NCBI GenBank assembly: GCA_021792355.1
Contig: JAJYUV010000044.1
Location: forward strand, 1 to 7,752
Origin: Thermoplasmata archaeon
GTDB taxonomy: Archaea; Thermoplasmatota; Thermoplasmata; Thermoplasmatales; GCA-001856825
DNA: 7,752 nt
Direction of reading: 5' to 3'
The notes beneath the pieces are model-generated. The model saw nothing but the letters and a program-made list of their open reading frames with translations, did no database searches and was not told the DNA's origin. Below are positions 1-7,581 of the stretch, one piece after another (the first letter of the stretch is position 1; every line of letters begins with the position of its first letter). Position numbers and translations under genes: made by a program.

Positions 1-51
1 CGCAAGCAAAAAATAATAATGGCCTAGAGATTGCCCTTAGAATCTAAGTAT

Positions 52-126
52 GGGCCCGTGGCCTAGTCTGGATAAGGCATTGGCCTTCTAAGCCAATGAT
101 CCGGGGTTCAAATCCCCGCGGGCCCG
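52..126 (+). tRNA. tRNA-Arg (anticodon TCT)
   Basis: A full cloverleaf can be folded by eye. The acceptor stem is GGGCCCG (52-58) paired with CGGGCCC (119-125), with discriminator G126. The anticodon stem TTGGC/GCCAA closes the 7-nt loop CTTCTAA, giving anticodon TCT, which reads AGA. The T arm is CGGGG, TTCAAAT, CCCCG. CCA is not encoded and there is no intron. The 3' end of this gene is the integration target of the element to the right, and the gene stays complete because the element carries a copy of the end it replaced. The A/T-rich stretch around 9-20 is a plausible promoter for it. Confidence 0.96.
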
Positions 127-127
127 T
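115..127 (+). repeat. Left attachment site (attL) in tRNA 3' end
   Basis: CCCGCGGGCCCGT covers the end of the T stem, the acceptor 3' strand, the discriminator base and one base beyond the tRNA. It is repeated exactly at 7569-7581. One further match follows leftward after a single mismatch. Integration at tRNA 3' ends is the usual habit of archaeal tyrosine integrases. Confidence 0.85.
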
Positions 128-2167: not shown

Positions 2168-4423
2168 ATGAGCAAAGATGATAAAGATGAGATTGACAAA
2201 GTAAAAGAAGGCCCCTCGTCAAAGGGGCCAGATGATGCGGACACGAGCACCAAGGAAGATATAAAACCTAAAGATAAAAGTGTTTCTGGTCCTATAAAAA
2301 AAACGAAGCCATTTTACCGTCTTGACGACACAGAAAGAGGCCAGGAGCTAAAAATTCATGGCCTAGCCAATAACGACCCAAAAGACTTCATATCTCTGAC
2401 GTGGGACGAGACAGGAGACATCTTAGACAACAAAAATCCTGGAATTATCACTTCAAAACTCAGAAAGGATACAAAAGAGTTCTACGACATCGACTACCTA
2501 ACAAAAGAGTTGAGCGAGTCCGACGAACTAAGAAGGAAATTTGAAAATTATATGAAGAAGAAATCCGAATCGGGTCCTTTTGAAATACAATCGGTCAACG
2601 AATTTGATCTGGTAATGGGGAACGTCAAGATCATAAATCCGGCCCTAGATTACTTCGACGACAGGTTGATTCTGACATTACCCTTCATCTGGAACAAACC
2701 ACTCTTAGATGACGACAAATCGATAAGGGGTCATAGGCCTGAGTTAACCAATTTTGCACTCATTCTACCGCACAAGGACCTCTTCCTTTTGAACGAAAAC
2801 GAACTGATAAAGAGAGGCTTATTCGCTAGACCGCCAACAGGAGTCTTTCCCCAGAGATGGAGCAATGATTCTTTCTTGGACTTTTTCAAGCGTGGAAAGA
2901 AAGTAAATCCCTATGAAGTTTTCAAGAGAATCAAGATCAAGTATGACTACTTCCTGGACTACGGAGAAAGTCAGTCCTACATTACCACGTATAAAGCTGC
3001 ATACATCATCATGACTTATTTTCATCCACTTTTTAACTATCTGGGATATGACAAACTGGAAGGCGATACCTCATCAGGGAAATCGAAGTCTGCGTTGATT
3101 GATCTACAAACCGGTTTCAACGCTATAAGCTCAGTCGATGCAAGTCCAGCTGCGGTTTACAGAATCATCCAGGAAAGGAGAGCTATGCTAATAGTGGATG
3201 AGTTTGAGGGTCACGCCGTCAAAGATCCCGATAAGCTTCAAATTCTAACGATTTTAAATGCCGGTTTTCAAAAAGGATTGACTATTCCAAGGATGGAAAT
3301 GAAAGGAGGTAGAGCTACTCTCCTTGAGAGTTCCCCTTATGGTCCAAAGACAATAGCGTCAATAGATTCACTCTATGAAACACTCAGAAACAGATCTCAC
3401 CTGATACGGTCCATTAAAACTCTGGACAAAGAGAAGTCAAATCGAGAAGTCAATATAGACGATCCAGAATGGCAATCGATCAGAGATGACCTTTACATTT
3501 TACTGGTAAATTATTATGGCGAGATAAAGAAGCTCTCGAATGAGAAGTACGACGACTGGGATCTAAGTAGCAGAGAGCTAAACAAAGCGAGGCCGATACT
3601 AGCGGTCATCAAGTTCATTTGTAAATATGCTGGACCAGAAGCAGAAGAGGTCTTAGACGACACCAAAAAATTCTTCGAGAATCAGAAAGAAGAAAATAGA
3701 GAGGCTAGCACGGAATCATTTGAAGCCACAATTATCAATCGATTGGAGATATTTGTAGAGGATGTAATCACCAACAGACACGAAATAAAGAGAAACAGGG
3801 ACGACGAAGATCAATTTAAGAAAGAACTAGCTAAATTCGACAAAGAGAACGTCGATATCTTGATTCCCGCAGTTTCTGAGGCAATAGCACTGGATTCAGG
3901 GATAGATATCGAGAATTCGAGATTCAATAAGATCAGCTATTCTAAAAAGATATCACAGAAACTTAAGACTATGAATCTGAAGAAAAATCCTAGAATCACC
4001 CACAATAACGTGACAATCTTCGAATGTTCACTTTCAGATGTCAAGGATGCGAAGACCAGATACGGACTTCTTTCAGGTCAATCTATACTACCTAACCTAC
4101 CTATACAACCTATACAACCTATACAATCTATACCAAAAAGTGAAAATTCAGGTATAGAAGGTAGAGATAGTATAGATGGTATAGAAAAAAGTAGGAGAGA
4201 GGATCAAGAAGAATTCAAAAAAGGAAATGGGTCATATTTCAAGATCCTAGAAAATTGTCATGTCCAGAGAAAAGGAATTCTCAAGAAAGGAATTACGATT
4301 TTTCTTTATCATAGCGAGGCAGCCGGACTGATTCAAGAAGGCCTTGTGGAATTAGCCTGTCGTGATGGAAATTGGGATCCGATTGAAAAACAATGCGTTA
4401 TGAATGGGGGTAGTCAAAAATGA
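2168..4423 (+). CDS. Replication initiator / helicase-like P-loop ATPase
   Basis: A 751-aa protein and the likely replication protein. Residues 1-45 are Lys/Asp/Ser-rich and disordered. About 60-260 match nothing I recognise. Residues 262-300 (YGESQSYITTYKAAYIIMTYFHPLFNYLGYDKLEGD) lead into a Walker A GDTSSGKSK (299-307), and Walker B is AMLIVDEFE (339-347, Asp344-Glu345). Sensor-like TIASID (395-400) and LRNRSHLI (406-413, likely arginine finger) follow. This order fits the AAA+/SF3-like ATPases of plasmids and phages, near the DUF3631 type, with a possible winged-helix region at about 565-632. A repetitive linker (638-673: PIQ repeats, then GIE/GRD/SID/GIE) is the translation of a DNA iteron array. 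The end (685-745) may be a small SH3-like domain. No primase motif is seen. GGAGG lies at 2153-2157, and the stop overlaps the next ATG. Confidence 0.78.
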   Translation: MSKDDKDEIDKVKEGPSSKGPDDADTSTKEDIKPKDKSVSGPIKKTKPFYRLDDTERGQELKIHGLANNDPKDFISLTWDETGDILDNKNPGIITSKLRKDTKEFYDIDYLTKELSESDELRRKFENYMKKKSESGPFEIQSVNEFDLVMGNVKIINPALDYFDDRLILTLPFIWNKPLLDDDKSIRGHRPELTNFALILPHKDLFLLNENELIKRGLFARPPTGVFPQRWSNDSFLDFFKRGKKVNPYEVFKRIKIKYDYFLDYGESQSYITTYKAAYIIMTYFHPLFNYLGYDKLEGDTSSGKSKSALIDLQTGFNAISSVDASPAAVYRIIQERRAMLIVDEFEGHAVKDPDKLQILTILNAGFQKGLTIPRMEMKGGRATLLESSPYGPKTIASIDSLYETLRNRSHLIRSIKTLDKEKSNREVNIDDPEWQSIRDDLYILLVNYYGEIKKLSNEKYDDWDLSSRELNKARPILAVIKFICKYAGPEAEEVLDDTKKFFENQKEENREASTESFEATIINRLEIFVEDVITNRHEIKRNRDDEDQFKKELAKFDKENVDILIPAVSEAIALDSGIDIENSRFNKISYSKKISQKLKTMNLKKNPRITHNNVTIFECSLSDVKDAKTRYGLLSGQSILPNLPIQPIQPIQSIPKSENSGIEGRDSIDGIEKSRREDQEEFKKGNGSYFKILENCHVQRKGILKKGITIFLYHSEAAGLIQEGLVELACRDGNWDPIEKQCVMNGGSQK
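4083..4184. repeat. Inverted array of 9-nt iterons inside rep
   Basis: Left arm: six units starting at 4083, 4092, 4101, 4110, 4119 and 4128, consensus CTATACAAC (the 4092 unit is degenerate). Right arm: four units at 4152, 4161, 4170 and 4179, consensus GTATAGAWG, the opposite orientation. Both arms keep an exact 9-nt period, and the inner parts (4101-4134 and 4151-4184) pair as an imperfect hairpin of about 34 bp (7 mismatches) around a 16-nt loop. The array is in frame and encodes PIQ and GIE-like tripeptides. It looks like an intragenic replication origin or autoregulatory site bound by the ATPase; that role is inferred. Confidence 0.7.
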
Positions 4424-4725
4424 TCTTCGTCAAGGTCGAAGACTACTCGGACCTATTCATTCAGATCTTCCACTACGAGACACTGAACCCGTCTGGTTCT
4501 CAAAATCAAGAACGCTTCAGAATGAACGCTAGCATGTCCGTCAAGAATTTATTGAGTAATCACACGTCTAAACCTTGCTCTCATGAAAATTCGAATTTTA
4601 AATCGATGTCGAATAATTCTGCTCTGATACACGAGTATCAAAAGACCTCAAAAAGCAAAAATGACACTCAAGTATCAAAAGATTTAAGGTCCACTTTTTT
4701 CAGGACGGTTTCAGGTTATCTTTAA
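4420..4725 (+). CDS. Doubtful 101-aa hypothetical protein
   Basis: Begins inside the rep stop (ATGA, 4420-4423), with a G-run (4407-4411) as the only ribosome-site-like sequence. Residues 1-35 look like ordinary protein (MIFVKVEDYSDLFIQIFHYE). Residues 45-100 are rich in Ser, Asn, Thr and Lys and lack hydrophobic pattern; the DNA there carries a palindrome, an inverted repeat and a direct repeat, and the stop lies inside another hairpin. Either a short real protein runs into regulatory DNA, or the frame is open by chance after coupling from rep. No family recognised. A position between rep and the coiled-coil gene would suit a replication accessory protein, but nothing in the sequence shows this. 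Confidence 0.42.
   Translation: MIFVKVEDYSDLFIQIFHYETLNPSGSQNQERFRMNASMSVKNLLSNHTSKPCSHENSNFKSMSNNSALIHEYQKTSKSKNDTQVSKDLRSTFFRTVSGYL
4586..4682. promoter_or_regulatory. Cluster of palindromes and repeats before the coiled-coil gene
   Basis: AAAATTCGAATTTT (4586-4599) is a perfect 14-bp palindrome. TGATAC/GTATCA (4625-4640, spacer ACGA) is an inverted repeat. AGTATCAAAAGA occurs at 4634-4645 and again at 4671-4682, so the GTATCA half-site is reused. These lie 64-160 bp upstream of the coiled-coil gene and look like operator or centromere-like sites. They overlap the tail of the doubtful 101-aa frame. Confidence 0.45.
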
Positions 4726-4745: not shown

Positions 4746-5579
4746 ATGATAGATAAACATGTAAAGATGGATGAAGGACAGAACGAAAGGGTTACCAAGT
4801 CTGGCAAGAGCATACCTGAGCTCATTGACATAGCTCTAAAGGTTACAGAAGAAGAGGGGATCAGTTTGCCTTCTTGGCTGCCTGGTTTCGATACCGACCC
4901 GAGGACGATCTACAACGATCTGAGAAAATTGGATGACAGCGATTTCAATGGACGACTGATAAAGGAGACCTACGATCAGGGATTGGGAACTCAGCACAGA
5001 GAATTCCTACTGAAAATTGCAGACAGCAACAGCGTTTACTATTTGCCTTTGGTTGAAAAATACGTGGGTCCTCTAGTCTCTGAGGAAAACAGGCTTAAGG
5101 TCATTGAAAGCGAAGTGGAATCCAAGATCGCTGAACGAGATGAGCTAATCGATGAGGTAGACGATCTTCGAGATGAACATGAGACTCAAGCTGAGCTCAG
5201 GAGAAAGATCCAGGAACTTCACGGAAAACTGAACGACGTTAACGAAAAGGTCAATGAGAGTATAGCGGAACGCATCAAGCTCCTTGAAGAAATATCGGAA
5301 CTTGAGAAAGCAAGGGATTCTTTGATAACACCGATTGTGAAAGAAATCGTAGGAAATTGGATCAGCGAGGAATATACGCTAGGAACTGTCCTAATCGGAA
5401 ATGCAATCTGGAGCTGTGACAATCCATATCACGAACAAACCGATGAAGAGAGAGCAGAAACTTATGGGCAGATAGTCCACTTCTTTAGAGGACTGAGAAA
5501 TCTCTCACACGTCACGCCTTCTAGTCTCATAAAAATAGCACAGCAAGTCAAAGAAGAACACCCTGAGTTCGACTCGTAA
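4746..5579 (+). CDS. Coiled-coil protein of unknown function
   Basis: A 277-aa acidic, almost wholly helical protein. Residues 20-108 are a helical N-terminal region, including SIPELIDIALKVTEEEG and a Trp/Pro turn (SWLPGFDTDP, 43-52) and RTIYNDLRKLDD. Residues about 111-192 form a long heptad-rich coiled coil (runs such as IAERDELIDEVDDLRDEHE and EISELEKARDSL). A compact C-terminal part (195-277, with WISEEY, IWSCDNPYHE and HFFRGLRNLSH) follows. No Walker, HTH or transmembrane motif is clear. The Shine-Dalgarno AGGAGG at 4731-4736, 9 nt before the ATG, fixes the start. As last gene of the cluster, next to the repeat-rich noncoding region, it could be a partition or replication partner; that is positional inference only. 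Family not recognised. Confidence 0.75.
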   Translation: MIDKHVKMDEGQNERVTKSGKSIPELIDIALKVTEEEGISLPSWLPGFDTDPRTIYNDLRKLDDSDFNGRLIKETYDQGLGTQHREFLLKIADSNSVYYLPLVEKYVGPLVSEENRLKVIESEVESKIAERDELIDEVDDLRDEHETQAELRRKIQELHGKLNDVNEKVNESIAERIKLLEEISELEKARDSLITPIVKEIVGNWISEEYTLGTVLIGNAIWSCDNPYHEQTDEERAETYGQIVHFFRGLRNLSHVTPSSLIKIAQQVKEEHPEFDS

Positions 5580-5584
5580 GCTCA

Positions 5585-5821
5585 AATCCACTCCAAAACC
5601 CCCTATTTTTCTTGTTTATTTTATATTCAATCCATTGTGGATTTTCTAGTCAGTCCCCTAAAATTCCTTGGCTAGCCCTTATTCTAGAACCACAAAATCC
5701 ACAGAATCCACGTTATAACTCGTTATAGCACTCTGTTAGACTAACATGTATGCGCATACGCATGTGAAAGGAGACACTCGGGTTTCCTTTTCTCCCCTCT
5801 CGTAATTCGCCTATCGCCTAA
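5585..5821. other. Repeat-rich noncoding region, candidate origin
   Basis: The 310 bp between the convergent gene ends (5580-5891) holds no credible gene. It contains AATCCAC at 5585-5591, 5696-5702 and 5705-5711, and an inverted repeat AATCCA-TTG-TGGATT at 5629-5643. CCACARAAT units stand at 5690 and 5699, with a partial one at 5708 (9-nt period). CGTTATA occurs at 5711-5717 and 5721-5727 (10-nt period). GTATGCGCATAC (5748-5759) is a perfect 12-bp palindrome, and CGCCTA is repeated at 5808 and 5815. No promoter should be needed between convergent ends, so an origin, partition site or small RNA are the alternatives. Confidence 0.5.
5601..5623 (+). terminator. T-rich terminator of the rightward cluster
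   Basis: A pyrimidine- and T-rich run (CCCTATTTTT, then further T clusters) begins 22 bp after the stop of the coiled-coil gene. Archaeal RNA polymerase terminates at such T tracts without needing a hairpin. Confidence 0.45.
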
Positions 5822-6210: not shown

Positions 6211-7512
6211 TCACGCCCTTTCGGGAAGTCTGACTATTGCCTCTTTGCCGTTTAGAGTAGTCACGAATTCCCATCCCTCGGTTATGTATTTTTTGACCTC
6301 ATTGGCAAGAATGACTTTCTGAGAGTGGCCGTTGTTTAGAGTTTTCCCCATTTTGTCTCTTACCTTCTTTTGTAGTTCCTCTGGCGGAAGATCCAACAGC
6401 TTGCCCTCTGATATCTCTTTATCATCAAATCCAATCATAGTCAGAAACCACTTCGTGGATGCATTGTTCAATTCTTCTTTCTCTTGTTCTGATAATGGTC
6501 TTCTCCCCGTCTCTAAATATGGCACGCACTTGAGGTAGGTCGATCTCATTTGCTCTACGATATCTGAGGCTAACCCCTTGTTTGTCGAGTATCTAGCCGA
6601 TATGTCTCCCTTGTGTCCAGTCCAATACTCCCTCCAATTATGAGAGACAAGACCTTTGTTCTCACACACGTCAAGAGCAGTCGAAAAGTAGGCTCTCAGG
6701 ACGTATGGTCTCCATTTGAAATCAAGTTCTCTAATTGCCTTTCTTATTTCCCTTGATATCAATTGCGTCCTTGGCCTTTTGTGCGTTGAGCGTGGAGTTC
6801 CTTCTATTGCGACTAGTGGAGAACTACCTGATAACCTCTCTCCATTCTTTAGTCTCTCTTCTAGATACTTCTTGACATAGGTGGCCCCTTCTTCCGGCAA
6901 GAACGTGATGTATTTATGTCTCGCCTTGCTAAGTGTGGACCTTACCTTGACTATTGTAGGCAATCGCTCAAACTCTATCTTATCATTGCTGAACTTCAAT
7001 TCTGGAAGATCTGAGAGTGTCAGGCCGTCGTTTCCTTTGAAGTCTCCGATGCTTTCAATTCTGAGGCCAGAGAATGCCATAAGGGATATCGAAACTTTAG
7101 CCCTTGGAGTAGCCCTGGTGATGATCTTGGACAATTCCTCTTGATTAGGAACTCTCTCATCCTCTACTGTTGGATTCCTAAAGGCTTCTCGGATCTTGAC
7201 TGATCTAAAGTCTATTTGAACGTCGTTATATCGTGTCCACGAAGACAGCACCTTCTTGAATCTCACTATGTAGGACCCCGCTTTTCCTTCTTCTTCTAGT
7301 CTGCGCACGAAGTCGTTGAACTCTTTTTTTAGCTTTCCGGTCTTTCCCTGTTCTATCACGCGTTTTGGTGTTGTCCCTTGTAACTCGCAGTATAGACCAA
7401 GAGTCCTAAGATAGACCTCTCCGGTTATTGTGGATCCGGCTGCTACGTTTTCGTTCCATCTTCTTACGTCGCGATCTTTGAGAAGTTTCAGGTGTTTCGC
7501 CTTGAATCCCAT
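6211..7512 (-). CDS. int: Archaeal tyrosine recombinase (integrase)
   Basis: A 433-aa site-specific recombinase that should integrate and excise this element at tRNA-Arg. The N-terminal core-binding region (about 15-115) contains the SAM-like helices. The catalytic domain shows box I FSGLRIESIGDFKG with Arg151, a beta-hairpin Lys in KARHKYITFLPEE (196-200), box II RPYVLRAYFSTAL with Arg273, GHKGDISARYSTNKG with His300, and nucleophile Tyr308. The usual first His of the HxxR box is Tyr270. A C-terminal extension (about 335-433), ending VKKYITEGWEFVTTLNGKEAIVRLP-like, resembles that of other archaeal plasmid integrases. All key residues except Tyr270 are standard, so it looks active. The start at 7512 has a TATA-like box about 23-25 nt upstream and no ribosome site, so it is likely leaderless. 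The gene is complete and not split by attachment. Confidence 0.93.
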   Translation of the reverse strand: MGFKAKHLKLLKDRDVRRWNENVAAGSTITGEVYLRTLGLYCELQGTTPKRVIEQGKTGKLKKEFNDFVRRLEEEGKAGSYIVRFKKVLSSWTRYNDVQIDFRSVKIREAFRNPTVEDERVPNQEELSKIITRATPRAKVSISLMAFSGLRIESIGDFKGNDGLTLSDLPELKFSNDKIEFERLPTIVKVRSTLSKARHKYITFLPEEGATYVKKYLEERLKNGERLSGSSPLVAIEGTPRSTHKRPRTQLISREIRKAIRELDFKWRPYVLRAYFSTALDVCENKGLVSHNWREYWTGHKGDISARYSTNKGLASDIVEQMRSTYLKCVPYLETGRRPLSEQEKEELNNASTKWFLTMIGFDDKEISEGKLLDLPPEELQKKVRDKMGKTLNNGHSQKVILANEVKKYITEGWEFVTTLNGKEAIVRLPERA

Positions 7513-7549: not shown

Positions 7550-7563
7550 TATAATCTATAATC
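7550..7563. repeat. Tandem 7-bp repeat next to attR
   Basis: TATAATC occurs twice in tandem (7550-7556 and 7557-7563), 5 bp from the right attachment repeat, upstream of the integrase promoter. ATAATCTA, overlapping this motif, also occurs at 226-233 near the other end. It is a candidate integrase arm site or autoregulatory site. Confidence 0.4.
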
Positions 7564-7568
7564 TAATA

Positions 7569-7581
7569 CCCGCGGGCCCGT
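7569..7581 (+). repeat. Right attachment site (attR)
   Basis: CCCGCGGGCCCGT is an exact copy of tRNA-Arg positions 115-127 but without the rest of a tRNA gene. It marks the junction between the element and the original chromosome, which resumes at 7582. Confidence 0.85.

Follow-up and report, generated by a model that had tools for sequence, protein, structure and literature searches.

A small mobile element integrated in a tRNA gene

The stretch of DNA analysed here, called the window throughout, comprises 7,752 nucleotides, apparently a whole contig, from a Thermoplasmata archaeon (JAJYUV010000044.1, assembly GCA_021792355.1). It holds a small mobile element integrated in a tRNA-Arg (TCT) gene, with the following features:

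51 to 127, forward strand: tRNA-Arg (TCT), the integration target, with attL in its 3' end at about 108 to 127
2168 to 4423, forward strand: rep, an open reading frame for a 751-residue P-loop ATPase, putative initiator/helicase
3713 to 4060, forward strand: predicted winged-helix domain of Rep (residues about 516-631), directly before the repeat array
4187 to 4420, forward strand: charged end of the linker and small beta-rich C-terminal domain of Rep, the confident part being residues about 687-746 (4226 to 4405)
5580 to 5780: second origin candidate, an intergenic stretch with inverted repeats, flanked by converging genes
6211 to 7512, reverse strand: tyrosine recombinase/integrase
7562 to 7581, forward strand: attR, a direct repeat of 108 to 127 (18/20 identical, 90%)

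The integrase matched phrog_1 (E 3.4e-6), its homologues are named integrase, and it also matched XerA_Arch with an E value of 4e-8, yet below the curated cut-off of that model. Its gene reads away from attR. No relative of the integrase was found among viral contigs, plasmids and phages. Relatives with 66-77% identity lie on contigs labelled Thermoplasmatota, Micrarchaeaceae, Parvarchaeota and Nitrososphaerota, a spread of sequences hinting at exchange or binning errors. The protein encoded at 1304-2143 is weakly glycosyltransferase-like (phrog_4356, E 1.9e-4), and the nearby ORF at 950-1111 is AbrB/MazE-like (PF04014, E 2e-4, below its cut-off). A coiled-coil ORF of the window gave a weak match to LmuB in a defence library (E 1.7e-4). 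Rfam detected no RNA besides the tRNA in the window, bacterial promoter and terminator scans of it were uninformative, and the GC skew seems to track the gene strand.

Two opposed arms of 9-nt units lie within rep

The preliminary description had placed ten 9-nt units, in two opposing arms separated by a 16-nt loop, inside the rep coding sequence, and had stated that they keep a strict period and stay in the reading frame. We confirmed this layout, which is composed as follows:

4082 to 4135, forward strand: left arm, codons 639-656, six 9-nt units encoding SILPNLPIQPIQPIQSIP
4136 to 4150, forward strand: A/T-rich spacer of 15 nt separating the arms, read from the sequence
4151 to 4186, forward strand: right arm, codons 662-673, four inverted 9-nt units encoding GIEGRDSIDGIE

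The period is strictly 9 nt in the rep frame, each arm was detected independently by a tandem-repeat search (TRF), and the spacer plus one base on its left forms the 16-nt hairpin loop of the minimum-energy fold. The core, CTATAC in the left arm and GTATAG in the right, is exact in eight of the ten units. Exact copies start at 4083, 4101, 4110, 4119 and 4128 on the left and at 4152, 4170 and 4179 on the right; the two degenerate units read CTAACC (4092) and GTAGAG (4161). All five copies of CTATAC in the window fall inside the array, as do three of the five copies of GTATAG, the other two being isolated at 5260 and 7390. In a core scan of the window, neither hexamer was found upstream of rep.

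Evidence for a constraint on the DNA beyond the need of the peptide

One hexamer occurs five times in a 9-nt register within 60 nt, while the maximum given by 150 first-order Markov sequences was three. We then kept the peptide fixed and recoded it synonymously under three nulls, with codons drawn from rep, drawn from six ORFs or permuted within rep (20,000 draws each). Against the eight exact cores of the native array, the null means were 0.54, 0.67 and 0.82 and the null maximum was five, so that in each null none of the 20,000 recodings reached eight. The left arm alone, with five cores, was equalled by none of the 20,000 recodings in any of the three nulls; the right arm alone, with three cores, was less extreme and was matched by 3, 5 and 18 of 20,000.

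Since tandem copying also preserves codons, a stricter, slippage-aware null was used, in which each arm was allowed tandem copying and used a single codon for each type of residue. One or more inverted hexamer matches between the arms appeared in 4,838 of 40,000 such trials, but the observed 15 of 24 matches were reached in only 19 of them. Slippage can thus account for repetition within one arm, but it is an unlikely source of so close a match between the two arms. Together with the synonymous nulls, this supports the earlier claim that the complementarity of the arms exceeds what peptide repeats alone would give. A constraint on the repeats at the DNA level, beyond the need of the peptide, is well supported within the window, and we consider it likely that the array has a function as DNA.

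Conservation of the array in homologous proteins

Protein searches, run with the single sequence and then with an alignment, returned the same nine proteins (P0001-P0009), scoring being done among the 7,998 candidates that shared most words. Both arms were present as peptides in all seven close Rep homologues (65-99% identical), two of which carry names, as proteins of Thermoplasmatales/Thermoplasmata MAGs. Units were counted in seven sequences, namely the window and P0002-P0007, P0001 being left out since it is identical to the window across the array; 66 of the 70 units were ungapped and four gapped. P0004 and P0005 are shorter by three residues, the length of one unit. At the protein level, where two wobble bases among the six core positions are not visible, the core is still encodable in the 53 of 66 units that have Ile as middle residue, and is lost through this residue in the remaining 13, with Asn in seven units of the left arm and Arg in six of the right. 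The first residue of the unit was P or S in the left arm and G, S or C in the right, and the third was Q, P or L in the left arm and E, D or G in the right. All these outer residues are compatible with unchanged outer core bases, as judged from proteins and with the wobble bases outside the view.

When each distinct residue was counted once per column, all nine codon-1 replacements were of the base-1-only kind and all nine codon-3 replacements of the base-2/3-only kind, both outside the core; all 18 can be reached by one base outside the hexamer, and three middle-codon replacements alter the core. In the rest of Rep, base-1-only and base-2/3-only replacements were split 202:163, leaving out 170 multi-step and 7 ambiguous ones, which gives P values of 0.005 for codon 1 and 0.0008 for codon 3. 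In these protein sequences the bias of the outer codons appears to back a constraint on the DNA; this support is not decisive, because P/S, G/S and E/D exchanges are easy in any linker.

P0001 equals the Rep of the window through residue 719 and then differs at eight columns, all eight matching P0002; from the sequences, the pattern at rep residues 720-751 looks as if tails had been swapped downstream of the array.

Beyond these proteins, Rep had no relative among viral contigs, genome contigs, phages and plasmids save one remote Thermus plasmid protein (21.4% identity over 35% of Rep, E 4e-3). CTATACAACCTATACAAC was present in 12 viral-contig stretches and the two-arm pattern in 89. None of the 102 motif loci examined had a coding sequence related to P0001-P0009 at E up to 0.01, in a search in which the window, as positive control, was recovered by all nine queries. 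The motif alone is not diagnostic.

Domains of the putative initiator Rep

By eye, Rep has a Walker A motif, GDTSSGKS, and a Walker B motif, LIVDEFE. Its ATPase core aligned over 248 columns (29%) with P0008, a protein that bears the name DNA primase and has toprim domains and a DnaG zinc ribbon, and with P0009, an ATPase carrying DUF3631 (33% over 109 columns). No model of Pfam (E up to 1) or NCBIfam (E up to 0.1) matched Rep; with Pfam at E up to 1, Rep showed neither RepA_N, toprim nor zinc ribbon, and both Rep and its eight-member alignment lacked a match to any primase family. Membership of Rep in DUF3631 (PF12307) was rejected, as there was no model match and the similarity to P0009 lies at residues 254-356 of that protein, with PF12307 at 345-473. 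The best PHROG for Rep was a single match (E 0.067). The Rep alignment had no match among solved structures in a sequence search, and a profile of the C-terminal part retrieved only unrelated chains (best E 0.022). Residues 536-627 gave a weak match to PDC-M63B in a defence library (E 0.0053).

AlphaFold models reached a mean pLDDT of 69.9 for the C-terminal third and 45.5 for full-length Rep. By block, pLDDT was 25-40 in the segment encoded by the array and 71-86 in the C-terminal domain. The array is predicted from the model of the C-terminal third to encode a disordered linker joining the winged helix to a small C-terminal domain, in agreement with the earlier placement of this linker after the ATPase. 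The C-terminal domain resembled in fold the GINS/PriS B-domain, among other small folds, and the winged-helix rows of Foldseek also list plant immune receptors and RNA polymerase III parts; since no match had an E value of 0.001 or better in either library, these fold names are leads. A GINS-B-like C-terminal domain, as modelled, may be a tether to the host replisome or may just be a common small fold.

A candidate replication origin inside the putative initiator gene

On balance, we lean towards the array being a set of initiator-binding iterons that double as coding sequence and most likely serve the excised element as its replication origin. The winged helix of Rep, which adjoins the linker, would bind the CTATAC cores, and the two opposed groups of units around the A/T-rich spacer would set two Rep oligomers head to head, an arrangement that would suit the loading of two rings in this orientation. 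The ATPase of Rep, which we infer to be an initiator protein, would melt the DNA, and two helicases would depart in opposite directions. Since the linker peptide would only have to be flexible, the DNA core could be frozen while the bases outside it drift. As for base composition, the 400-base profile has its G+C minimum in 3901-4300 (0.34); at the 200-base scale the A/T-richest positions are near 131 and 771, and 4111 is among the 12 lowest in G+C. A spacing of 9 bp is unusually short for iterons and counts against the iteron reading.

Origins inside genes are already known in bacteria and phages; we found none for an archaeal element in a literature search of titles and abstract openings, with subscription journals mostly outside its scope. 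The lambda O initiator recruits a helicase and is not itself an ATPase. According to PMC3349717, the lambda origin within gene O consists of four 18-bp iterons beside A/T-rich DNA. Like these, the array, if bound as proposed, would be iterons inside the coding sequence of their own initiator and adjoining A/T-rich DNA; unlike them, it has 9-nt units in two opposed groups and belongs to an archaeal element, in a gene for an ATPase. By analogy, the nearest working model may be pSK41, whose Rep boxes, as described in PMC5703833, lie centrally in rep and encode a linker that is dispensable as protein, and whose Rep binds the boxes through an N-terminal winged helix and the host DnaG through its C-terminal domain. 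In both cases repeats in rep encode the linker, here a predicted one, from a winged helix to a C-terminal domain. In contrast to pSK41-type RepA_N plasmids, which are bacterial, the Rep described here is an archaeal P-loop ATPase in which RepA_N was not matched. The P4 alpha protein binds its origin repeats through a winged helix (PMC4234260). Our Rep is similar to P4 alpha and DnaG-type primase-helicases in that its ATPase core is related to P0008, and differs from them in having no matched toprim or zinc ribbon and in the location of the sites inside the gene.

On this reading, the element departs from lambda and pSK41 in that its initiator would be archaeal and helicase-type and its iterons form two arrays facing each other. 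To our knowledge, many archaeal mobile elements have no mapped origin. If our reading is right, an element family that has not been studied gains an origin open to direct testing, and origins placed within the initiator gene, as in lambda and pSK41, would also have arisen with a helicase-type initiator in archaea. The array would then illustrate overlapping selection neatly, the hexamer core staying frozen while the disordered peptide encoded there varies at positions outside that core. A bolder proposal, to which we give little credence, is that a family of Thermoplasmata integrative elements carries its origin in the linker of the helicase-initiator, with opposed iterons loading two rings head to head and the encoded linker tethering a GINS-B-like recruiter of the host CMG replisome; origin, initiator and host adaptor would then be a single inseparable cassette.

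Fold of the array and alternative readings

The main rival, a serious one although we judge it improbable, reads the array as a stem-loop in DNA or RNA; in this view a winged-helix helicase would recognise a cruciform or hairpin as the origin, as proposed for pRN1. The archaeal plasmid pRN1 encodes a Rep (ORF904) with helicase and winged helix and requires an intact 100-nt stem-loop, where its authors propose the assembly of Reps that combine a winged helix with an AEP primase and an SF3 helicase (PMC4234260). The element studied here shares with it the archaeal host, an ATPase with a winged helix (predicted in our case) and an inverted structure of about 100 nt tied to the rep gene. The pRN1 stem-loop is, however, non-iteron and located downstream of its gene, and no primase domain was recognised in our Rep. 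A hairpin is indeed predicted at the array, with z -3.9 as RNA (equalled by 0/200 shuffles) and z -3.0 as DNA (2/200), and in a scan of 284 windows (30 shuffles each, RNA parameters) the three top z-scores belonged to two array windows and a tRNA window. Nevertheless, 46 and 48 of 2,000 synonymous recodings folded as well as the native array, and fold energy alone is weaker evidence. Moreover, a hairpin tolerates paired changes and needs no repeated single hexamer, no compensatory exchange is visible among the homologous proteins at the protein level, and the broken units (left 2 and 5, right 2 or 3) are paired by no single register.

It is likewise doubtful that the array is a regulatory site to which Rep or some other protein of the element binds, for autorepression, as a roadblock to the rep transcript or for copy control by titration or handcuffing, with the origin elsewhere, for instance at 5580-5780. 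This intergenic region contains 15-nt inverted arms (5636-5650/5689-5703) 38 nt apart, 9-nt repeats at 5686-5711, three AGAATCCAC-like copies and, by eye, the palindrome TATGCGCATA. Its DNA fold had z -2.0 (4/200 shuffles as good), and the scan segment at 5617 reached z -3.1 with RNA parameters. It could be an origin, or a terminator between the converging genes. Against a regulatory site, the rep promoter is without a core-like site, and a position 1.9 kb into the gene would be odd for an operator. Autoregulation at the rep promoter itself was set aside as less likely, there being no CTATAC or GTATAG there. The array as a transcription terminator was also set aside, as it lies inside a gene and has, by eye, no T run.

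Least probable is a tandem-copied proline/isoleucine-rich linker whose DNA has no role: tandem copying explains the repetition within each arm and, in slippage-aware trials, can give an occasional inverted match, and a peptide motif could also account for the middle Ile, but the two arms encode differing peptides and still match in inverted order to a degree rarely reached in those trials, the outer replacements spare the core and the linker is predicted to be disordered.

Two 21-nt repeats were observed at 4625-4682, directly downstream of rep and within a doubtful 101-residue ORF. Each is an imperfect palindrome with GTATCA, and their fold is unremarkable (z -1.0).
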